Of a DNA stretch of 64,000 nt, positions 16,120 through 26,731 are shown piece by piece. Made by a program: the position numbers and the translations under genes. The notes below the pieces were generated by a model that was not told where the DNA came from, searched no databases, and saw only the letters and a list, made by a program, of their open reading frames with translations. Source of the stretch: Cohaesibacter celericrescens (GTDB taxonomy: Bacteria > Pseudomonadota > Alphaproteobacteria > Rhizobiales > Cohaesibacteraceae). The first letter of the stretch is position 1. Every line of letters begins with the position of its first letter. The DNA is taken from contig NZ_PKUQ01000022.1 in NCBI RefSeq assembly GCF_002866925.1, positions 228,402 through 292,401 of the forward strand. The letters run 5' to 3'.

Positions 16120-17838
16120 ATGTCTATCGTCGACCTGATTGCATTCTTGCTCAAACATGTAGGCCTATTGGTTGCGGGTGCGTTTGTGCTGCTCACCCTA
16201 TCGCCAGTTCAGGAAATCAATTTCCAAAGGACCGGCATTTCCAACCGGCTCTTTCTGATCGTCTTTTTTGGGTTGATGGGCATTCTGGGCACCTATAGCG
16301 GCAATGCCATATTCGACTCCATTGCCAACTTGCGAGCCATGGCTGTGGTCACAGCAGGATTGGTTGGTGGCCCCTTGGTTGGACTGGGCGCCGGTCTCAT
16401 CGCTGGCGGGCATCGCTTTATGATCGATCCGTGGGGCTTTTCGGCGTTGGCCTGTTCGCTGGCAACCATCGTAGAAGGACTGATGGCGGGCTGCGTATAT
16501 CTTAGGATGAAAGACCGCAGCATGAACTGGCGGGTTGCGCTCATCGTAACGCTGATCGGAGAGACGATGCATATGGGTATGGTGCTGGCCTTTTCGCGCC
16601 CAATAGAGGACGCCATGGCACTGGTTCAAGTCATCATGTTACCAATGCTGATTGGCAATGGCTTGGGAGCCGTGCTTTTTGTCCATGTGATCAATTCCAT
16701 TCAGTCCTTCCGTGAACGCAAGGCATCGGATTATACCCAGAGAATTTTTGAAATCACCAATAGCACCGTAGCCCATTTGCGTGCAGGCTTAAATCAGGAC
16801 AGTGCCAGCGCCATGGCAGCAATCATTCATGACCGCCTGCCCGTCGCCGCCGTGTCTGTGACCAATGCTAGCCACGTCTTGGCCCATGTAGGCGAAGGCA
16901 GCGACCACCATCTGCAAGGCTCGCCCATTGTCACCAAAGCAACTCAAAATGTGATTGCCAGTGGCAACTCCATTTTTCTGAAAGAAAAAGGCGCCATCGG
17001 GTGCAGCCATGCCCATTGCCCCTTTTCCTCGGCCATCATCGTACCGCTGAAAAAGAATGGCACTATTGTAGGCACCCTCAAATTCTATGGCTCATCAACG
17101 CAAGAACTCAATTCGATTTTGATGGAAATAGCCAAGGGACTGACAGACCTCTTCTCGATTCAGCTGGAGTTGGAAGACATTCAGGTCAAGGCCCGCTTGC
17201 TTGCCCATGCAGAGATCCGCCACCTACAGGCCCAGATCAACCCGCATTTTTTGTTTAACTCGCTCAATACGATTGCCTCATTCTGCCGCACGGCCCCAGA
17301 CAAGGCACGCGAATTAATCCTCGATCTGTCGTTCTATATGCGCAAAAACCTTGATTCCAGCCGCGGCTTTATCCGCCTTGCCGACGAGTTGGACCAGATC
17401 AATTCCTATCTCGCGATTGAAAAGGCCCGTTTTGGCGAGCGTATCCGCGTCAAACTTGAGGTGGAACAAGGCTGCGAAGACTGGCCCATCCCTTCACTGA
17501 TCATCCAGCCGTTGGTAGAAAATGCCGTCAAGCATGGCCTGAAGGTGCGTCCGGATGGCGGTATCGTTGGATTGGAAATTCATCGAGAACAGGGCGAGTT
17601 GTGTGTCACGGTTTATGATGATGGCGCGGGTATTCCGCCCGAGATACTGGGGTCTTTGCTGGTCCAACGGGTTATCGAATCCCAACAAGACGGGGTCGGG
17701 CTACGCAATTCCAATCAACGCCTAGAGCAGATTTACGGCCCCGAACATGGCATGCATATTATCAGTGCCCATCAGAAAGGAACCAGTATTTCATTTACTA
17801 TCCCCCATAGGCGAGAGCTGCTGCCCCAAGCTTCATAA
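16120..17838 (+). CDS. LytS-type sensor histidine kinase
   Basis: 572 aa. Residues about 1-200 hold six or so transmembrane segments of the 5TMR-LYT type (including GGPLVGLGAGLIAGGHRFM). A GAF-like region spans about 210-360. The His-kinase domain has HLQAQINPHFLFNSLNTIA near residue 370 with the phospho-accepting His in NPHFLFN. The ATPase domain has PSLIIQPLVENAVKHGL and DDGAGIPPE. In known relatives the membrane domain senses pyruvate outside the cell. It likely phosphorylates the LytTR regulator just upstream and controls the CstA-family transporter gene downstream. Confidence 0.95.
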   Translation: MSIVDLIAFLLKHVGLLVAGAFVLLTLSPVQEINFQRTGISNRLFLIVFFGLMGILGTYSGNAIFDSIANLRAMAVVTAGLVGGPLVGLGAGLIAGGHRFMIDPWGFSALACSLATIVEGLMAGCVYLRMKDRSMNWRVALIVTLIGETMHMGMVLAFSRPIEDAMALVQVIMLPMLIGNGLGAVLFVHVINSIQSFRERKASDYTQRIFEITNSTVAHLRAGLNQDSASAMAAIIHDRLPVAAVSVTNASHVLAHVGEGSDHHLQGSPIVTKATQNVIASGNSIFLKEKGAIGCSHAHCPFSSAIIVPLKKNGTIVGTLKFYGSSTQELNSILMEIAKGLTDLFSIQLELEDIQVKARLLAHAEIRHLQAQINPHFLFNSLNTIASFCRTAPDKARELILDLSFYMRKNLDSSRGFIRLADELDQINSYLAIEKARFGERIRVKLEVEQGCEDWPIPSLIIQPLVENAVKHGLKVRPDGGIVGLEIHREQGELCVTVYDDGAGIPPEILGSLLVQRVIESQQDGVGLRNSNQRLEQIYGPEHGMHIISAHQKGTSISFTIPHRRELLPQAS

Positions 17839-17935
17839 GTGCGCGCGAAGGCCTATTTAGGGCATCACTTTAGCATTTTTTAATGCTGACTGAGTCGTGC
17901 AAAGGGCCTTTGCTGCTAGAGATGCATCTACTGGT

Positions 17936-17967
17936 GTGCATTCCAGCGCCTGTCAGTGCATTCCAGC
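17936..17967 (+). promoter_or_regulatory. Direct repeat, probable LytTR-regulator binding site
   Basis: GTGCATTCCAGC occurs at 17936-17947 and 17956-17967, exactly 20 bp apart. Paired 9-10-bp words about 20-21 bp apart are the hallmark of LytTR-domain sites, and the word resembles the YpdB site GGCATTTCAT. It lies 120-152 bp upstream of the CstA-family gene and downstream of the regulator pair. Confidence 0.75.
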
Positions 17968-18087
17968 CTCCCAAAGTGATCTTCCAAACACAATTCTTTG
18001 CTCCGTTAATAAGTGTTAACTAGATTGCCGCCATCGCAAAAGACATGTGGCTCCTTTCCGGGCCACCCCGCTGAAGGAGGATGCGGT

Positions 18088-19518
18088 ATGATTTATTTTC
18101 TATCTTGCGTCGGGTTGCTCATACTCGGCTATTTTACCTACGGTGTTTTCGTAGAGAAAATCTTCGGTATTGAGCCTGAAAGAAAAACACCCTGTTGGAC
18201 CAAAGAAGACGGCGTTGACTATATTAACATGCCAACCTGGAAGGTCTTTTTCATTCAACTGCTCGACATTGCCGGTCTTGGGCCGATTTTTGGTCCTATT
18301 CTGGGGGCGCTCTATGGTCCACAAGCTCTGCTGTGGATTGTGATCGGTAGTATTTTCGCCGGTGGTGTCCATGACTATTTCTCAGGCATGCTTTCCCTGC
18401 GCAGTGGCGGCAAGTCTATTCCGGAAGTGGTTGGAGACGAGATGGGCATGGCTGCACGCCAGACCTTGCGGGTATTCTCCGTCGTGCTTTTGTTGCTGGT
18501 GGGTGTCGTCTTCATTCTCGGCCCAGCCAAGCTGCTCGGCTCACTGACAGGCTTCAACGTATCGCTGCTGGTTGGTCTGATTTTCGTTTACTATTTCATC
18601 GCGACCGTGCTGCCAATCGACAAAATCATTGGCCGTCTGTATCCCATCTTCGGTGCCTTGTTAATGTTTATGACCATCGGCATCACCTTCGGCCTGATCT
18701 ATCATGGCTATGAATTCTTGCCCAACATGGACTTTGCCGTCAATGTGCATCCCGGTGACCTACCCATCTGGCCCCTGCTCTTCATCACTCTAAGCTGTGG
18801 TGCATTGAGTGGGTTCCACTCGACCCAGTCTCCGCTAATGGCCCGTTGTATGCGCAACGAGAAAAACGGTCGCCCGGTCTTTTACGGCGCCATGATTGCC
18901 GAAGGCATTATTGCGCTCGTATGGGCCACCGCTGGTATGTCCTTCTATGAAACACCAGAAGCCATGAATGCTGTTATTGCTGCCAGCTCTCCTGCCGGTG
19001 TTGTCAATGAAGTGTCAAATGCTCTGCTCGGGCCTCTTGGTGGCTTCCTTGCCATTATGGGCGTGATTGTTTTGCCTATCACCAGTGGCGATACAGCTTT
19101 CCGGTCCACCCGCCTAATCCTTGCCGAAGCCTTCAATGTGGATCAGACGAAAATCGTTAAACGCTTAATGATCGCTCTGCCACTGTTTGGAGTTGCCTAT
19201 TTTATCACTTTGGTCGACTTCAATGTGATCTGGCGCTATTTTGGTTGGTCCAATCAGATGCTTTCCATGCTCATGCTTTGGAGCGCGGCTATCTGGCTGG
19301 CACGTAAAGGAAAACTACACTGGATCGCGACCATCCCCGCCGTCTTCATGACAGGTGTGGATGCAGCCTTCATCCTGCAAGCCAAAATCGGGCTGGGTTT
19401 GCCTGCAACAATGTCCAACATTGCCAGTGTGGTCATAGCTGTGGCATCTTTGGTCGCCTTCCTTATGCTGGTGCGCCCTGTCGCTGAAACCAGCAAAGAT
19501 CCGGCACCTGCGGAATAA
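18088..19518 (+). CDS. CstA-family transporter (pyruvate/peptide uptake)
   Basis: 476 aa with about 12-14 hydrophobic segments. CstA-family marks include IAGLGPIFGPILGALYGPQ near residues 53-71, VHDYFSGMLSLRSGGKSIPE near 93-112, SGFHSTQSPLMARC near 238-251 and TSGDTAFRSTRLI near 332-344. It is shorter than E. coli CstA/BtsT (about 700 aa), as in many proteobacterial homologues. The ATG at 18088 follows AAGGAGG. The LytS/LytTR genes upstream and the direct repeat in its leader suggest it is induced by the substrate the kinase senses, perhaps pyruvate. Confidence 0.9.
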   Translation: MIYFLSCVGLLILGYFTYGVFVEKIFGIEPERKTPCWTKEDGVDYINMPTWKVFFIQLLDIAGLGPIFGPILGALYGPQALLWIVIGSIFAGGVHDYFSGMLSLRSGGKSIPEVVGDEMGMAARQTLRVFSVVLLLLVGVVFILGPAKLLGSLTGFNVSLLVGLIFVYYFIATVLPIDKIIGRLYPIFGALLMFMTIGITFGLIYHGYEFLPNMDFAVNVHPGDLPIWPLLFITLSCGALSGFHSTQSPLMARCMRNEKNGRPVFYGAMIAEGIIALVWATAGMSFYETPEAMNAVIAASSPAGVVNEVSNALLGPLGGFLAIMGVIVLPITSGDTAFRSTRLILAEAFNVDQTKIVKRLMIALPLFGVAYFITLVDFNVIWRYFGWSNQMLSMLMLWSAAIWLARKGKLHWIATIPAVFMTGVDAAFILQAKIGLGLPATMSNIASVVIAVASLVAFLMLVRPVAETSKDPAPAE

Positions 19519-19626: not shown

Positions 19627-20310
19627 TCAGTCCCCGAACGCATAACCGATGCCATAGATAGACCTTATAAGATCCATCCCCGGGGCGATGGCCTTGACCT
19701 TTATGCGGATGTTTTTGATGTGACTATCAATGGTGCGATCCACCATATCCAAATTGTCGGAGAAGACCAAATCAAGCAACTGAGCACGTGAATAAACCCT
19801 ACCAGGGTGATTTGAGAGAATTCTGAGGAGTTGGAATTCCCGTCGTGTAAGATCCAGCGCATGGCCTTCAAGACAAGCGGTCCATTTGTCTTCATCAAAT
19901 GTCAAACCATGCTGGGGGAGCGATTGCTCCAGAGACCGAACTTTCGTTCGGCGCAAAACAGCCTTAACACGCGCCACCAATTCACGAGGTGAAAAGGGCT
20001 TACATAGATAGTCATCGGCTCCCAGCTCCAACCCCAAAAGACGATCAATCTCCTCGAGCTTGGCGGTTTCCATGATAATTGGAACATCAGACTGATCTCG
20101 CACTTCCCGAGCGATAGCCAACCCATCCTTGCCCGGTAGCATCAAATCCAGCACAACGAGGTCCGGTGAAAGTTCCAGAATTGTTTCCACGGCATGACTG
20201 CCCTCATGCAACATCGTAACAGCAAAGCCGGAATGCTCAAGATACTCTTTAATCAGATCCGCAAGGACCACCTCGTCTTCGACAATAAGGATGTGATCCG
20301 CCTGTGTCAT
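19627..20310 (-). CDS. OmpR-family response regulator
   Basis: 227 aa. The receiver (1-118) has EDE at 11-13, phospho-acceptor Asp55 in LVVLDLMLPGKDG and Lys in DYLCKPFSPREL. The winged-helix Trans_reg_C domain (about 130-225) has LTRREFQLLRILSNHPGRVY and VDRTIDSHIKNIRIKV. Its start overlaps the end of the kinase gene by 4 bp... that is, kinase first, regulator second in a leftward operon. It faces the lipoprotein/flavoprotein genes across the kinase gene; the 11-bp repeats at 23062-23094 fit the DNA-binding habit of this family. Confidence 0.95.
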   Translation of the reverse strand: MTQADHILIVEDEVVLADLIKEYLEHSGFAVTMLHEGSHAVETILELSPDLVVLDLMLPGKDGLAIAREVRDQSDVPIIMETAKLEEIDRLLGLELGADDYLCKPFSPRELVARVKAVLRRTKVRSLEQSLPQHGLTFDEDKWTACLEGHALDLTRREFQLLRILSNHPGRVYSRAQLLDLVFSDNLDMVDRTIDSHIKNIRIKVKAIAPGMDLIRSIYGIGYAFGD

Positions 20311-21827
20311 TTTGTTGTATTCCTTGGCAAAGTAAGTGTGATGCGCAGTCCACCCAAAGGTGACGGGGACGCTTCAATCGTACCACCATGAACCTTGATA
20401 ATCGCTCTGCAGATAGAAAGTCCAAGACCAGATCCACCCGATTGGCGCGCTCGCGATCTATCCGTACGATAGAAACGATCAAATAAATGCGGCAAATCAT
20501 TAGGTTCCGGACAAGGGGCACTATCCTCGACCGTCGCGATGATCCGATCTTCCTCACGGTAGGCGCTCACTTTGATTTCACCGGGGCTGTTCGTATAGCG
20601 CAAGGCGTTCTCAATCAGATTATCGACGACCTGATGCAAACGTTGGTGGTCACAGAGGATAGGCAAGCAATCCACAGCTGTGAAGGACAAAGATAAACCT
20701 TTGCTCTCAGCCCGCAGTCGCTGACTGTCGACAACAGATTCTATGATATCTCCCAGATCATCAGGATACATCATTTCAGATCGCTGTCCCTCTTGAGTGA
20801 TAGACAATATCTTAATATCATTGACTAAGCGTGAGAGACGCAAGATGGCAGCATGCATCTCGGCGTATGATTTCTCGTCAGGACTACGGATACCATCCTG
20901 AAACGCCTCGATTTCGGCTCGGAGAATGGCAATTGGGGTTTGCAACTCATGAGAGGTATCAGAAATCCATTGCCGCTCGGTCCGGCGACTGGCATCCAGG
21001 CTCTCTGCAAGGGCATTGTAGTGATTGACCAGCTCTCCCAGCTCATCGGAACGATCATTGACGATGTGGTGGCTATAATCCCCCGCAGACAGGATCTCCG
21101 CCCCATCAGCAACGCGTCGGATTGGCAACAGCAGGCGTTTGGCTAAAACAAATGCAATAAAAACAGAGACCAGAAGCGCAATTAGCGCCGACAGGGCCAA
21201 GGATTTATATTGTCCGAACAGATAGAAACGATCCGTAGGCCCGCGCGCGCCCTCCGGTTCACTGAGGCCGAGGTAACCAATGATCTCAGCATTTTGGTTT
21301 TGAACGCGCTTGCGAATTGTGCGTGTCTCAAAAAGGGAAGAACGCCGAGATGAGCCGACGACCCGTTTTCCATTAGCATCCAGTAAAACAAGGCGTTCAA
21401 ACAAGATCATTGGCAAAGGGTCAGGAGGGGGTGGGAGACGCAGGGTTTGATCGGCCGTAACCAGTTCTCCTTGCGGAGAATGCGGCACTATCTGGCTACG
21501 GGGCGAAGATTGGGGGATCTCCGATCTATCTGCATCTCCCGATTTGACCTCACGATCGAGGTCTTCTGTCAGCTCCAAATGGGACAATACGAGGTTTTGC
21601 CATTCGGTTTCTGCGGCTTGAAGCTCAGGCCAGCCAGGTTGATCCGGATCGTAGCTATTGGACAGAGCCAGTTCCAGACTATCCAGACGCTGCAACTCTC
21701 CTCTAAGCAGGTATTTGGAGAAACCATCCTGCATTGCGTAACTAATCAGGGTCGCCATTGTGATAATCACAATAACCACCGTGAATAAGATGGCGACAAG
21801 GATTTGCCCAGCCAGCGAGTGCTTCAT
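20307..21827 (-). CDS. Sensor histidine kinase (BaeS/EnvZ-like architecture)
   Basis: 506 aa. A first membrane helix near residues 8-28, a periplasmic domain of about 170 residues, a second helix (ALSALIALLVSVFIAFVLA) near 210-230, HAMP to about 285, HisKA with SDTSHELQTPIAILRAEIEA, and HATPase_c with NLIENALRYT and GSGLGLSICRAI. The ATG at 21827 gives better spacing from AGGA than the one at 21836. The periplasmic loop suggests it senses an envelope signal. It is divergent from the lectin-fold lipoprotein gene, 298 bp away, which suggests it controls the redox genes on its right. Confidence 0.93.
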   Translation of the reverse strand: MKHSLAGQILVAILFTVVIVIITMATLISYAMQDGFSKYLLRGELQRLDSLELALSNSYDPDQPGWPELQAAETEWQNLVLSHLELTEDLDREVKSGDADRSEIPQSSPRSQIVPHSPQGELVTADQTLRLPPPPDPLPMILFERLVLLDANGKRVVGSSRRSSLFETRTIRKRVQNQNAEIIGYLGLSEPEGARGPTDRFYLFGQYKSLALSALIALLVSVFIAFVLAKRLLLPIRRVADGAEILSAGDYSHHIVNDRSDELGELVNHYNALAESLDASRRTERQWISDTSHELQTPIAILRAEIEAFQDGIRSPDEKSYAEMHAAILRLSRLVNDIKILSITQEGQRSEMMYPDDLGDIIESVVDSQRLRAESKGLSLSFTAVDCLPILCDHQRLHQVVDNLIENALRYTNSPGEIKVSAYREEDRIIATVEDSAPCPEPNDLPHLFDRFYRTDRSRARQSGGSGLGLSICRAIIKVHGGTIEASPSPLGGLRITLTLPRNTTK

Positions 21828-22125
21828 ATTCAACATGTCCTATTCAGTGATCGGCAATTGTGCAGTGATTATGAAGTTATTTGAGGTGAATTCAGACAAA
21901 CAAGCGCCTCGAGATACAAATCCATATCTCGAACACTGTCCATAACTACATGACTCTTATAAATAATTACAACTTTTACGCAGATAAAACCTTTAATAGG
22001 GGCTGCCCTTTTTTTACCTTTATTTCTACTCATTGGCTGCATTTTTCCCCAGTCTATTGCTGTCAAATCAAGGGGCCAACATCGCTTGATCCATCACTCA
22101 GTAATAGAAACGAAAAGGGCAAAAT

Positions 22126-23025
22126 ATGTTGCACAAGGTTTCACGTCTGACGAACACCCTATTCAGCGGTGTCTTACTACTGGTCCTGCCTGCGTGTGGA
22201 CAGACCGGCGGCCAAGATGGCCCTAAGGGAAGACCAATGGGCGACCCGCCCCAACAAGGTTCACAACGTCCAGACGGTGCTGGTCAAGCAAAAGAAATCC
22301 AAGTCGGAAACCTGACCTTTAAAGCCAGCAAGCAAGTGTTTGACGGTTTTAACGCCCTTCCTGATGCTCTGACCTATACCCGCCTCCCCATCAAGGCCTT
22401 TACCCGCCCTGAAGGCGGCACTCACTATTATGAAACCGTATTGATGACGTCTCGTAATATTAGCTGGTTACAGGCCGCTGTGCTGGCTCAATCTGAAGGC
22501 GGTTATCTTGCTTCCGTCACCAGCGCGCGCGAGAATGCTTTCATTTACAAGCAAGTAAATTCTGCCAAATTTTTCTGGGAACTCCCAGACGGTCTGACAA
22601 ACGCATCCCCACTTATCGGTCCATTCCTAGGCGGTATCAAACAAGGCCAAAGCGAAGATGTGAACTCAGGATGGAGTTGGGTCAGTGGCGAACGATGGTC
22701 CTTTGATAATTGGGCCGCCAACTGGATCCAAACCGAGGACAAGCAGGATAAGACAGACTCCTCCCGCCAGACCAGCAGTAGCCAAAATGGAAGGCAAGGG
22801 CCCGGAAGACAAGGTGGCAAAGGCGGGAGAGGCCCCAGCCGCGATGGTCAAGACCAGAGACAATCCCCTTCGGAAAGCACCAGTTATGTCGCAATGTCCT
22901 TTGCTGGCCTGAACAAACCGTCATCCCAATGGGGTGCATTGGTCTCGGGGCGAGGCAGCAGCATCCGGGCTCCTATCGCTTATAGTCGTGCCTTCATCAT
23001 CGAATATGACAAAAAGCCTAAATAG
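22126..23025 (+). CDS. Lipoprotein with a C-type-lectin-like domain
   Basis: 299 aa. The signal peptide ends in the lipobox LLVLPAC (Cys near residue 25). A Gly/Pro/Gln-rich linker follows to about residue 65. A lectin-like fold spans about 80-295: TWLQ-like helix SWLQAAVLAQSEGGYLASV, then SARENAFIYKQV, FLGGIKQG, GWSWVSGERWSFDNWAANW and a final AYSRAFIIEYD strand. A second low-complexity Gly/Arg/Gln-rich insert lies near 225-255. It should be anchored in the outer membrane or periplasmic face. It lies upstream of the Tat flavoprotein gene in the same direction. Its ligand is unknown. Confidence 0.82.
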   Translation: MLHKVSRLTNTLFSGVLLLVLPACGQTGGQDGPKGRPMGDPPQQGSQRPDGAGQAKEIQVGNLTFKASKQVFDGFNALPDALTYTRLPIKAFTRPEGGTHYYETVLMTSRNISWLQAAVLAQSEGGYLASVTSARENAFIYKQVNSAKFFWELPDGLTNASPLIGPFLGGIKQGQSEDVNSGWSWVSGERWSFDNWAANWIQTEDKQDKTDSSRQTSSSQNGRQGPGRQGGKGGRGPSRDGQDQRQSPSESTSYVAMSFAGLNKPSSQWGALVSGRGSSIRAPIAYSRAFIIEYDKKPK

Positions 23026-23215: not shown

Positions 23216-25105
23216 ATGACCAACAAAGACCAAAAGAAACCGGGCCGCACGCCTTTCTCGGCTATGTCTCGGCGCGATCTGCTGACACTGGGTGCCGTGA
23301 CAGCAACAGCCGTGGCGGCGCCCATGATCATACGCAACGGAACTGCCAAACCGATGGGACAGATCATCAAAGATAACTATGACACCGACATACTTGTCAT
23401 TGGCTCGGGGTTTGCCGGAGTGTTTGCTGCGGTTGAGGCCAGTACAAAGGGTCAACGGGTGTTGTTGCTGGACAAAGGTTCGGTTGGTTGGTCCGGCCTT
23501 TCTCCTTGGGCTTCAGACAGTCGCCCGTTTGACCCCACGATCTACGACCGTGACGAGTGGATGGAAAATCTCTCGACCAACTGTGAGTGGATCAATGATC
23601 GTGGCTGGCTTGATATCTTCATGGATGAGTCCATGAATATTTTCGAGACACTGGACAGTTGGGGTGTCCACAAATGCAAACCTTTCGAACGCTCCAAAGT
23701 CTTTTTGAACAAGTTGCAGCAGGCCGGTGTAGAAATCATCGAACGGGTGATGGTGACCAGTCTGTTGAAAGATGAAGCGGGCCGTGTCGGTGGTGCCGTT
23801 GGCTTCACATTTGATGACAGCAATGATGAGTGTAAATCAGTCATCGTTAAAGCCAAAGCGACCATTCTTTGCACCGGTGCAGGCGCTTACAAAAGCCCTG
23901 GGTTCCCCAATTGGGGGCAGACCTTTGATGGCGACGCCATGGCCTATATGGCGGGCGCCACAATCACGGGCAAGGAATTTCACGATACACACGGCACATT
24001 TTCCAACTACCCCGCCGCCGCCTATGAGAATTGGAGTTGGGCACAGGATGTGACTGGCGCTTTCATCATGGTGGGCGCTCCGGAAAAAGCTTCAGGTGGA
24101 TTGACAATTGACGAGGCATTGCAAGCAGCACAAAGTGGTGTGTCACGGGGTGGCCACGGGCCCGGCGGCGCTGGCGGACCACCTCCCGAGATGGAAGCAA
24201 TGAAGACGTCTGCCGAGAAAAACCAGTCCTATAAAGGCAAGGGCTTTCTGGCCCGCGAGGATCTTATCCTAGACTTTGGCGAACCACCATCAGGCCCACC
24301 GCCCAAGGGCCACATAAACAAAGGATATCATGTCGGAGGTGCCACATCCGGTATGGGTGTGCACAAAAGCGAAGGTGTGTTTAACGCCGACCTCAGCTGC
24401 CGGGCAGACGGTATCAAAGGCCTTTACGCCGCCGGTGATGCGTTAGGATCCATGCTGTGTGGTTCGTCCTATCCCGGCCGTGGATTTTCGTCTTACGGCT
24501 CTGCCATTCAGGGACGGATTGCCGCACAAACTGCCTGTGCAGACGTGGCAACCCTTGAAGAAGCAACCGTCACCGATGCCGAGATCGAAACCAAAGTTGC
24601 CCAGATGTGGAGCCCACGCGAAAGAGATAAAGGCTATTCTCCGAGCTGGGTCACTCAGGTGCTGCAAGGGGCTATGACGCCCTTTCACATCCTTTACATC
24701 AAAGAAGAACGGCGACTTGAAGGAGCCTTGTCCTCCATCGAGTATTTGCGCAAGCATGTTGTGCCCAATCTTGTGGCCTCAAACGGACATGAACTGCGGA
24801 TGGCCCATGAAACCGCCAGCATGCTGCTCAATGCAGAAATGAAACTGCGGGCAAGCCTTTATCGTACGGAGAGTCGGGGCACACATTTTCGCGAAGATTA
24901 CCCTGCCCGCAACGATGCAGACTGGCATTGTTGGGTGCTGTTACAGCAAGGCGCTGACGGCGCTATGCAGTTAGCCAAACATATGCTGCCTGAAGAATGG
25001 CGGCCTGACGCCACGGCCAGCTACCGCGAAAATTATCCCCGCGCCTATCCCGGTGAGGAAGCGTTCCTTGCCGCGCAGGGCATAGATGTAGCCAGCCAGA
25101 GCTGA
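23216..25105 (+). CDS. Tat-exported FAD-dependent oxidoreductase (fumarate-reductase flavoprotein family)
   Basis: 629 aa. A Tat signal near the N-terminus reads SRRDLLTLGAVTATAVAA (twin Arg at 19-20). The FAD domain starts TDILVIGSGFAGVFAAVEA near residue 51, with a C-terminal FAD motif GLYAAGDALGSMLCGSSYPG near 402-421. A capping domain and a C-terminal helical region with ESRGTHFREDYPARND resemble SdhA/FrdA and AprA. A Gly/Pro-rich insert lies near 300-330. The ATG at 23216 is chosen over a TTG at 23195. A ferredoxin gene follows after 16 bp and a membrane oxidoreductase gene after that, so it probably reduces or oxidises a small substrate in the periplasm. The substrate is unknown. Confidence 0.88.
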   Translation: MTNKDQKKPGRTPFSAMSRRDLLTLGAVTATAVAAPMIIRNGTAKPMGQIIKDNYDTDILVIGSGFAGVFAAVEASTKGQRVLLLDKGSVGWSGLSPWASDSRPFDPTIYDRDEWMENLSTNCEWINDRGWLDIFMDESMNIFETLDSWGVHKCKPFERSKVFLNKLQQAGVEIIERVMVTSLLKDEAGRVGGAVGFTFDDSNDECKSVIVKAKATILCTGAGAYKSPGFPNWGQTFDGDAMAYMAGATITGKEFHDTHGTFSNYPAAAYENWSWAQDVTGAFIMVGAPEKASGGLTIDEALQAAQSGVSRGGHGPGGAGGPPPEMEAMKTSAEKNQSYKGKGFLAREDLILDFGEPPSGPPPKGHINKGYHVGGATSGMGVHKSEGVFNADLSCRADGIKGLYAAGDALGSMLCGSSYPGRGFSSYGSAIQGRIAAQTACADVATLEEATVTDAEIETKVAQMWSPRERDKGYSPSWVTQVLQGAMTPFHILYIKEERRLEGALSSIEYLRKHVVPNLVASNGHELRMAHETASMLLNAEMKLRASLYRTESRGTHFREDYPARNDADWHCWVLLQQGADGAMQLAKHMLPEEWRPDATASYRENYPRAYPGEEAFLAAQGIDVASQS

Positions 25106-25121
25106 ACAGGAGAAGCACCAA

Positions 25122-25337
25122 ATGGCTATTGAACAAATACATGGCTGCACCGGTTGCGGCAATTGTGTAAGGGCCTGCCCGACTGACGTGATCCGCATGG
25201 ACCCTGACACGGGACTTGCCGTCATCACCTATCAGGATAATTGCCAGATTTGTCACCTGTGCCGCCTCAGCTGCCCGGTAGACGCCATAACTCTGACCCC
25301 GGACAAGGCCATATCCCCTATGGTTTCTTGGGCCTGA
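25122..25337 (+). CDS. 2[4Fe-4S] ferredoxin
   Basis: 71 aa. Two complete cluster motifs are seen: Cys9, 12, 15, 19 in CTGCGNCVRACP and Cys41, 44, 47, 51 in CQICHLCRLSCP. It resembles AprB/FrdB-like small electron carriers. No signal peptide is present, although the flavoprotein next to it has a Tat signal; co-export as a folded complex would explain this. The ATG follows AGGAG. It likely passes electrons between the membrane oxidoreductase and the flavoprotein. Confidence 0.93.
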   Translation: MAIEQIHGCTGCGNCVRACPTDVIRMDPDTGLAVITYQDNCQICHLCRLSCPVDAITLTPDKAISPMVSWA

Positions 25338-25354
25338 CTGAGAGGGACTAGACC

Positions 25355-26731
25355 ATGACAGACCTGAGCATACGGCCTCCTAAAGCAGCCTCCCCCGCTG
25401 GGGCTATGCCTTTTTCGCGTCTCCTTCTTTATTGCGCTATGTTGATTTTTGTGCCGGTGCTATTAGCCCTCTCGCAAGGGCTGACAATCAACAACCTGTT
25501 TGCCCTGCTGGTTTCCGTGCTGAGCATTGGCGGATTGGCGGCCATGCTGCTACAATTTGCCCTTGCTGGACGCATCCCGCGTTTCACTCGCTGGGCAGGC
25601 ATCGACAATGCCATGCGTTTGCATCGCAAGACGGGCGAAATTTTGGCGTTGTTTTTCTTACTCCATCCGTTCTTGTTGGTTCTGCCAAGATTCTTTGTGG
25701 CGCCACAGTTGGCTCTAAGTGATCTATGGACCACCTTCACAGCGACAGAGACCGCAACCGGCTTTTATGCCATGAGCATAATGGTGGTGTTGGTGCTGGC
25801 CTCCATATTCAGAGACAGATTGCCGATGAGCTATGAAGCTTGGCGCGTCTCTCACGGTCTGGGGTTTGCTGTTGTCATGATTTTGGCAACAGACCACGCC
25901 ATCACCAATGGTCGCCATGGCGTCTACAACAACTGGTTCGATGCCATGTGGGTCATTTTATGTGCGCTTGCAGTCGCTTCTATTCTCGACGCGTATCTGC
26001 TGCGTCCATGGCGGCTAAAGAAACGTCCCTTTAAAGTGGTTTCAGTCAATCAAGCTAGTGACCGAGACAGGATTCTGACCATCGAGAAAGATGGAGATTT
26101 CGACTTTGACTTCAAGGCAGGCCAGTTCCTTTGGATCAACACCAGCGGCCATGTCGGCAACCGAACAGATCATCCCTTCTCGATTGCCTCGACACCTCAA
26201 AATATGCCGCGCCTGTCCTTTGTCATCCGTAATTTGGGCGACTATACCTCAGGGCTCGATAAACTCGAACCGGGACAGACGGTGTATCTTGACGGACCTC
26301 ACGGGGACTTCACCCTTGATGCTGCTAAAGGCAATTCGATTGTGTTGATTGCCGGTGGTGCTGGCATTGGGCCAATCCTTGGGCTGTTGCGCCAACTCAA
26401 CGCGAACAAAGATCCAAGATCCATTCACCTTTATTACGGTAGCCGCACAGAGAAGGATGTGGTCGCTTGGGACGAGATAGAACAGATAATTGCAACAATG
26501 GAGAATTTCAAAGCAACAAAGATTCTCGAAATCACCAACGAAGAAGAGGCGGTTGCAGAAAAAGGCTACATTAATCAGGCGCTTCTAAGCCGCACATTGG
26601 ACAAGGACCAGATTAATGACGCCAGCTTTTATGTGTGCGGTCCTCCGGTGATGTTGGAAGCCGTGGTGCATGATATCAAAAAACTCGGGGTTCCCTCCTC
26701 CCGCGTCATTTTTGAACATCTCACTTTTTGA
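25355..26731 (+). CDS. Ferric-reductase-like membrane oxidoreductase with FAD/NAD(P) domains
   Basis: 458 aa. The N-terminal half (about 20-220) has six or so transmembrane segments of the ferric-reductase-like type with His residues suited to b hemes (AMRLHRKTGEILALFFLLHP and WRVSHGLGFAVVMILATDHA). The C-terminal half is a ferredoxin-NADP reductase module: FAD motif RTDHPFSIAS near 272 and NAD motif IAGGAGIGPILGLLRQL near 335, ending FYVCGPPVMLEAV and a terminal EHLTF. It should take electrons from cytoplasmic NAD(P)H across the membrane. As third gene of the operon it is the likely electron source for the ferredoxin and the Tat flavoprotein. Confidence 0.9.
   Translation: MTDLSIRPPKAASPAGAMPFSRLLLYCAMLIFVPVLLALSQGLTINNLFALLVSVLSIGGLAAMLLQFALAGRIPRFTRWAGIDNAMRLHRKTGEILALFFLLHPFLLVLPRFFVAPQLALSDLWTTFTATETATGFYAMSIMVVLVLASIFRDRLPMSYEAWRVSHGLGFAVVMILATDHAITNGRHGVYNNWFDAMWVILCALAVASILDAYLLRPWRLKKRPFKVVSVNQASDRDRILTIEKDGDFDFDFKAGQFLWINTSGHVGNRTDHPFSIASTPQNMPRLSFVIRNLGDYTSGLDKLEPGQTVYLDGPHGDFTLDAAKGNSIVLIAGGAGIGPILGLLRQLNANKDPRSIHLYYGSRTEKDVVAWDEIEQIIATMENFKATKILEITNEEEAVAEKGYINQALLSRTLDKDQINDASFYVCGPPVMLEAVVHDIKKLGVPSSRVIFEHLTF

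Follow-up and report, generated by a model that had tools for sequence, protein, structure and literature searches.

A block of three genes at positions 23216 to 26731 of a 64,000-nucleotide stretch of the Cohaesibacter celericrescens genome (the whole stretch is referred to as the window) probably encodes a self-contained periplasmic reductase, in which electrons would pass from NAD(P)H via FAD and two b haems to a co-exported ferredoxin (Fd) and on to an exported flavoprotein (FP). The system is real, recurrent, and sparsely found: 18 loci were opened, one of them a second copy in the window's own genome, and they come from one fusobacterium and two or more classes of Pseudomonadota. The domains, the haem and cluster ligands, the twin-arginine translocation (Tat) motif, the Fd without a signal, the conserved gene set, and the exchangeable donors can all be read from the sequences.

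In the proposed mechanism, NAD(P)H would reduce the FAD of a cytoplasmic FAD/NAD(P) domain (FNR), and the two b haems of a ferric reductase-like domain (FRD) would carry the electrons across the membrane. Outside, the small 2[4Fe-4S] Fd, exported with the folded FP via Tat (hitchhiker export), would receive them as the electron-transfer subunit of FP, which in turn would reduce a periplasmic substrate at its FAD. The FP:Fd complex, the co-export of Fd, and the outward direction of the electrons are the steps that we infer.

Components of the Block

All three genes lie in the same direction on the forward strand, separated by only 16 bp (FP-Fd) and 17 bp (Fd-FRD/FNR). FP (23216-25105, from the ATG at 23216 to the end of the stop codon; 629 amino acids) belongs to the SdhA/AprA superfamily, with Pfam matches to FAD_binding_2 (1.7e-19) and Succ_DH_flav_C (3.5e-15), and its cofactor is presumed to be non-covalent FAD. 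Its N-terminus carries SRRDLLT followed by 18 uncharged residues. A simple Tat rule was positive in three of the 47 non-overlapping open reading frames of at least 150 amino acids in the window, FP included, and the motif by itself would be weak evidence; because a Tat-signal FP recurs in 18/18 loci, the motif in FP appears to go beyond chance. Overall, 18 of 20 FPs bear the signal, both exceptions being Ilyobacter paralogues; in one locus (L032), the motif TRRDVLK was read by eye, the simple rule having picked a later RR. A TatC gene is present in the window's own genome.

FP also contains an insert rich in Gly and Pro (residues about 312-365) that precedes GGATSGMGVHKSEG. In the family, the insert varies in length and stands directly before GG(A/S)(S/T)(A/S)G(M/L), and its peak Gly+Pro fraction over 30 residues is 0.30-0.83 versus 0.14-0.19 for the whole protein (14/14 FPs tested). 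The alignment placed no such insert in three AsfA-like relatives.

Fd (25122-25337; 71 amino acids) matches 4Fe-4S families and carries two CxxCxxCxxxCP motifs, that is, eight Cys and two [4Fe-4S] motifs only, rather than the three clusters of an Fe-S subunit of the MfrABE/succinate:quinone oxidoreductase type. In 18/18 loci, Fd has no signal peptide and measures 69-71 amino acids from the likely start, and the eight Cys as well as Trp70 are invariant. Longer upstream starts are possible in some frames, and no signal was seen there by eye.

The third gene (25355-26731; 458 amino acids) encodes a six-helix membrane protein with an MsrQ/NOX-like FRD, bis-His haem pairs, and a fused C-terminal FNR domain, matching Ferric_reduct (PF01794, 2.6e-12), FAD_binding_6 (3.3e-06), and NAD_binding_1 (6.8e-20). 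Six hydrophobic segments lie ahead of the FNR domain, and a seventh peak falls within it. The three loops on the N-terminal/FNR side contain 3, 6, and 3 Lys and Arg residues, as against 0, 0, and 1 in those facing the other way, a charge pattern that puts the FNR end on the predicted cytoplasmic side. The haem-type residues His 90, 104, 167, and 181, together with His 188, are conserved in 17/17 FRD proteins and would fit electron transfer across the membrane; the FNR fusion occurs in 12 of these 17, the window protein included. The top PDB match was 8qt6 (2.2e-18), which we take to be the NOX of S. pneumoniae (SpNOX). CxxCH was not found in the 10 FPs and 11 FRDs searched (those of the window among them), and none of eight window proteins matched FMN_bind in Pfam.

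An earlier note on this DNA had described a Tat-signal flavoprotein of the SdhA/AprA kind, a signal-less 2[4Fe-4S] ferredoxin, and a membrane protein combining haem-type helices with FAD/NAD(P) domains in one tight operon, and each part of this description holds. Its chain from an NAD(P)H domain through membrane haems to an envelope flavoprotein is likewise supported by the sequences, while the co-export of the ferredoxin stands as our inference. The note had also suggested looking for the block in other genomes, and Fd proved signal-less in every locus opened.

Occurrence and Gene Order

The 18 loci comprise all hits at E <= 1e-60 in the sampled genomes, plus three named records. Genomes with hits numbered at least 1/385 in the class set, at least 3/397 in the order set, at least 2/398 in the phylum set, and at least 7/355 in the order of G1006; scoring in these four largest sets covered the three best candidates of each genome. 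Smaller sets gave 3/147 (family of G1006), 3/87 (family of G726), and 1/5 (family of G513); the sets overlap, and the counts include the centre genome. For nine of the 18 loci, the host genome and that of the window have only the phylum in common; judged from their genes, these hosts are taken for Gammaproteobacteria. A contig scan yielded a single locus, from an uncultured Tropicimonas; its gene order is that of the window, and its FP is 75% identical. Among the matches listed for plasmid records, the FPs of Paracoccus seriniphilus and Ilyobacter polytropus were 43-44% identical and the rest below 30%. Phages gave two records at 26% identity, and no relative was confirmed in viral contigs. 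The second copy in the window's genome (L022:8856-11592, G000:C25) is 38% identical and divergent, with the order Fd-FRD-FP and an FRD without FNR.

Five gene orders were found. The order FP-Fd-FRD/FNR of the window is shared by L021, FRD/FNR-FP-Fd occurs in L032 and L040, FRD/FNR-Fd-FP in L041, L043, and L059-L064, and Fd-FRD-FP, with a short FRD alone, in L022, L024, L030, L031, and L042. The Ilyobacter locus (L023) encodes, in order, a NapH/FMN protein, a small protein, Fd, two FPs, and a Tat-signal FP, then tatA, tatC, and a tatA-like gene; an FMN_bind protein is present in this operon. The donor is therefore FRD+FNR in 12 loci, FRD alone in five, and NapH/FMN in one, while Fd is constant in all 18. 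The small Ilyobacter protein (L023:3671-4069) has no Pfam match; it has Pro-rich ends and an LTxxQ-like stretch similar to Spy/CpxP.

In all eight FRD/FNR-Fd-FP loci, the nearest in-frame ATG of FP lies 1-4 nt past the Fd stop codon, and the final Fd codons (Trp-Arg-stop; TGGAGGTAA or TGGAGATAA) resemble the ribosome-binding site of FP, so that the two genes look translationally coupled there.

The Partner of the Ferredoxin

In the main alternative to an exported Fd, this protein would be cytoplasmic and feed the FRD haems (or FNR), and FP would draw directly on the outer haem, in the way that MsrQ supplies MsrP. Such an Fd ought to be dispensable when FNR is fused to FRD, yet Fd is kept in 12/12 loci of this kind, which argues against a role as cytosolic donor; it is also retained with the NapH/FMN donor. 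In addition, FP adjoins Fd in all three regions of signal-less relatives that were opened (L033-L035), none of which has a Tat signal. Because these relatives share the pairing, it does not depend on export. Pairwise distances over 16 loci (without L062, a near-duplicate of L061, and L023, which has no FRD) were most strongly correlated for FP-Fd (r 0.82), compared with 0.70 for Fd-FRD and 0.40 for FP-FRD. Fd thus appears to track FP best, a correlation that is silent on the compartment in which the two meet. That the Ilyobacter operon is followed by tat genes was counted in favour of the proposed mechanism.

Several observations nevertheless weigh against an exported Fd and suit a cytoplasmic one. 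Fd is signal-less in all of the 18 loci. The Ilyobacter operon encodes three FPs beside Fd, two of which lack a Tat signal, and Fd might serve cytoplasmic paralogues there. Five FRD-alone loci, ordered Fd-FRD-FP, have no FNR domain, and a cytosolic Fd feeding their haems is conceivable. The Fd-FRD distances are themselves correlated (the 0.70 given above, with short and fused FRDs pooled). Moreover, an AlphaFold2 model of FP from a two-row alignment reached a predicted local distance difference test score (pLDDT) of 28.9 and a predicted template modelling score (pTM) of 0.21, and gave no usable structure of FP or FP:Fd. On balance, a cytoplasmic Fd is considered unlikely, and Fd as the exported subunit of FP is preferred.

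Family Position and Substrate

The FP family forms a single clade of 14 rows with a support of 100/100 in a 22-row tree, in which window-type, second-type, and Ilyobacter subclades are distinguished; the tree predates L059-L064, and the wrong-frame outgroup rows L004, L006, and L017 were excluded from it. The neighbouring group (91/91) consists of L007, named AprA by eye, and AsfA-like proteins, and its nearness to the FP family is uncertain because the outgroup branches are long. The earlier note had held that its reading would fail if relatives of the flavoprotein were shown to be cytoplasmic enzymes of known reaction; a cytoplasmic location applies to the neighbouring signal-less group only and not to the FP family itself. 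Against solved structures, the family profile matched best Sdh1 (7d6v), AprA (1jnr, second-best), and the alpha subunit of 3'-phosphoadenosine 5'-phosphosulfate reductase (8a8o). FP fell below every NCBIfam cut-off among the models listed, the best score being 167.9 bits versus 587; the AprA equivalog scored 65.3 versus 641.75, and the same general models were matched by 13/13 family members scanned.

A periplasmic Mfr/SdhA-type reductase of fumarate or C4 dicarboxylates, served by a new donor, would agree with the SdhA-like C-terminal domain and the profile matches. The fumarate-binding residues of E. coli SdhA are H242, T254, E255, R286, H354, and R399, and they were transferred to 14 FPs (without L002 and L003). 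A His aligns with H242 in 13/14 FPs, and Arg stands one column away from R399 in the four window-type FPs. His383 is invariant in a 13-row FP alignment (without the L030 FP) and matched the His of Sdh1 HYVMGG in one alignment and not in another, which leaves H354 ambiguous. On the other hand, the T254/E255 columns are gapped and the R399 column is never Arg in 14/14 FPs, and FP scored only 39.3 versus 1100 with the MFR model and 100.3 versus 567.3 with sdhA_frdA. The alignment script located no equivalent of R286. A fumarate reductase of this kind is considered very unlikely, and the substrate of FP is probably not a C4 dicarboxylate. Fumarate or adenosine 5'-phosphosulfate (APS) activity was not supported by residue transfer.

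One lead is a sulphur-oxo compound as a candidate substrate, since the nearest proteins in the tree are AprA/AsfA-like (on long branches) and sulfatase genes lie near three loci, confirmed by Pfam in L032 and L040 and annotated near L024. The neighbour scan of L041 and L059-L064 showed no sulfatase, and the link of sulfatases to the system is only a lead.

Neighbouring Genes and Regulation

Upstream of the block in the window, on the reverse strand, lie genes for a BaeS-like sensor kinase (20307-21836), a possible regulator, and a BaeR-like response regulator (19627-20310). Homologues stand beside the block in L024 and L059, the kinase being divergently placed there; identities are 40% and 34% for the kinase and 62% and 53% for the response regulator, respectively. 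A forward-strand gene at 22126-23025, between regulator and block in the window, encodes a putative lipoprotein (by eye) with Gly/Pro/Gln-rich stretches and a C-type-lectin match just below the Pfam cut-off. It was considered as a core part and rejected, having no match in L059-L064, the loci searched for it. A different two-component pair is found near the L060 block, and AraC-type regulators adjoin L021 and L063. Further upstream in the window (16120-19518), a gene for a LytS-type sensor kinase (5TMR-LYT) adjoins a CstA-family transporter gene in a BtsS/CstA-like arrangement.

Seven of the nine presumed gammaproteobacterial loci, L041 and L059-L064, have no pathway neighbours in common; the nearest neighbours encode YCII, a phosphoesterase, an EamA transporter, a Na/Pi cotransporter family protein, two aminotransferases, TPR and AraC proteins, DUF3455, and unknowns. 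Because these seven loci share no pathway neighbours and a BaeSR-like regulator occurs at three loci, an oxidised compound or damage product in the envelope, in a role like that of MsrPQ, is favoured as the substrate over a growth substrate.

The neighbourhoods also hold counts on the other side. L032 and L040 are surrounded by genes for a TonB receptor, IclR, a sulfatase, and a transporter resembling the major facilitator superfamily (MFS-like, below the Pfam cut-off), which suggests a growth substrate there. An EamA transporter gene follows the L059 block on the same strand. A second BaeSR-like pair (L049:479-2834, G000:C2) lies close to the end of a contig, and the 9 kb examined there contain no FP block, so the link of the regulator to the block is not exclusive. 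A Pro-rich segment of the sensor kinase, considered as a system-specific signal, was rejected, as this second kinase of the same genome has it as well. Most loci agree with a reductase that stands alone and acts on envelope oxidants, and a growth substrate is possible in L032 and L040.

The catabolic look of the L032/L040 cluster, together with the missing NAD(P)H domain in FRD-alone loci, would also suit a dehydrogenase working in reverse, in which FP oxidises a periplasmic substrate and electrons move inward through Fd and haem, ending on quinone in FRD-alone loci or on NAD(P)+. However, the fused FRD+FNR has the NOX/FRE architecture, in which electrons flow outward (PMC5676040), and L041 and L059-L064 share no pathway. 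This direction is regarded as very unlikely, and outward reduction of a periplasmic substrate is retained.

Comparison with Known Systems

No description of this three-part system was found in the portion of the open-access literature searched, and in the passages of PMC11334425 consulted (a follow-up to PMC8238504), no mention of ferric reductase, fumarate reductase, or NapH was found. There is slightly less than an even chance that the block stands for a class of its own among exported fumarate-reductase-like enzymes, with a Tat-hitchhiking 2[4Fe-4S] Fd, NOX-like power, and a substrate new to the superfamily. If the proposed mechanism is true, an Fd outside the cytoplasm that is fed by a NOX-like protein would add a module to periplasmic electron transfer, some bacterial NOX homologues would have a function besides making superoxide, and Tat hitchhiking could be tested on a small system.

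In the methylmenaquinol:fumarate reductase MfrABE, the membrane subunit, MfrE, oxidises methylmenaquinol. MfrB, the Fe-S subunit, is SdhB-like. This periplasmic enzyme of Campylobacter and Wolinella resembles the present system in that its FAD subunit belongs to the SdhA superfamily and carries a Tat signal, SRRDFIK, and in having an Fe-S subunit (PMC3996566, PMC4148689). It differs in that part of the fumarate site appears to be missing in FP and that MfrB has [2Fe-2S][4Fe-4S][4Fe-4S] clusters instead of the two [4Fe-4S] of Fd; its authors argued that MfrB localization depends on MfrA (PMC3996566). Signal-less partners that hitchhike on export have also been described for PaoABC (PMC4273604).

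AprAB/AsfAB-like systems likewise combine a flavoprotein with an adjacent small ferredoxin gene, as in all 18 loci and in L033-L035. These three pairs, which we take to be AsfAB-like, have neither Tat signal nor Gly/Pro insert. APS reductase is cytoplasmic, a location not expected for FP given its predicted Tat signal. AsfA/AsfB have been termed a reductase-ferredoxin (PMC2864759).

As in MsrPQ, a predicted periplasmic enzyme would be supplied through an FRD protein of the membrane that has two bis-His haems. MsrP is exported by Tat. In contrast to the PF00890 flavoprotein FP, MsrP, which receives electrons from MsrQ (PMC5676040), is a molybdopterin enzyme, and no ferredoxin or flavoprotein takes part. 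With NOX/FRE proteins such as SpNOX, FRD and FNR on a single chain are shared, whereas the operon here encodes dedicated partner proteins, and for this reason the acceptor is presumably neither O2 nor iron.

The closest general parallel is provided by UrdA, FccA, Listeria FrdA, and NapH-like or MsrQ-like systems, in which exported PF00890 enzymes are placed on interchangeable membrane modules and MsrQ-like proteins frequently bear an NAD domain (PMC8238504, Meheust et al. 2021). Such fumarate-reductase-like enzymes use FMN or covalent flavin or cytochrome wiring (PMC8238504). The earlier note's statement that known periplasmic fumarate and urocanate reductases use cytochromes instead was too narrow, as urocanate reductase is flavinylated (PMC8238504) and MfrABE has an Fe-S subunit (PMC3996566). 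In place of the FMN-binding or haem c domain of UrdA, FccA, and FrdA, a separate 2[4Fe-4S] Fd is found here; modular periplasmic electron transfer is the known frame, and the wiring of an exported flavoenzyme by a small 2[4Fe-4S] Fd is what would be new.

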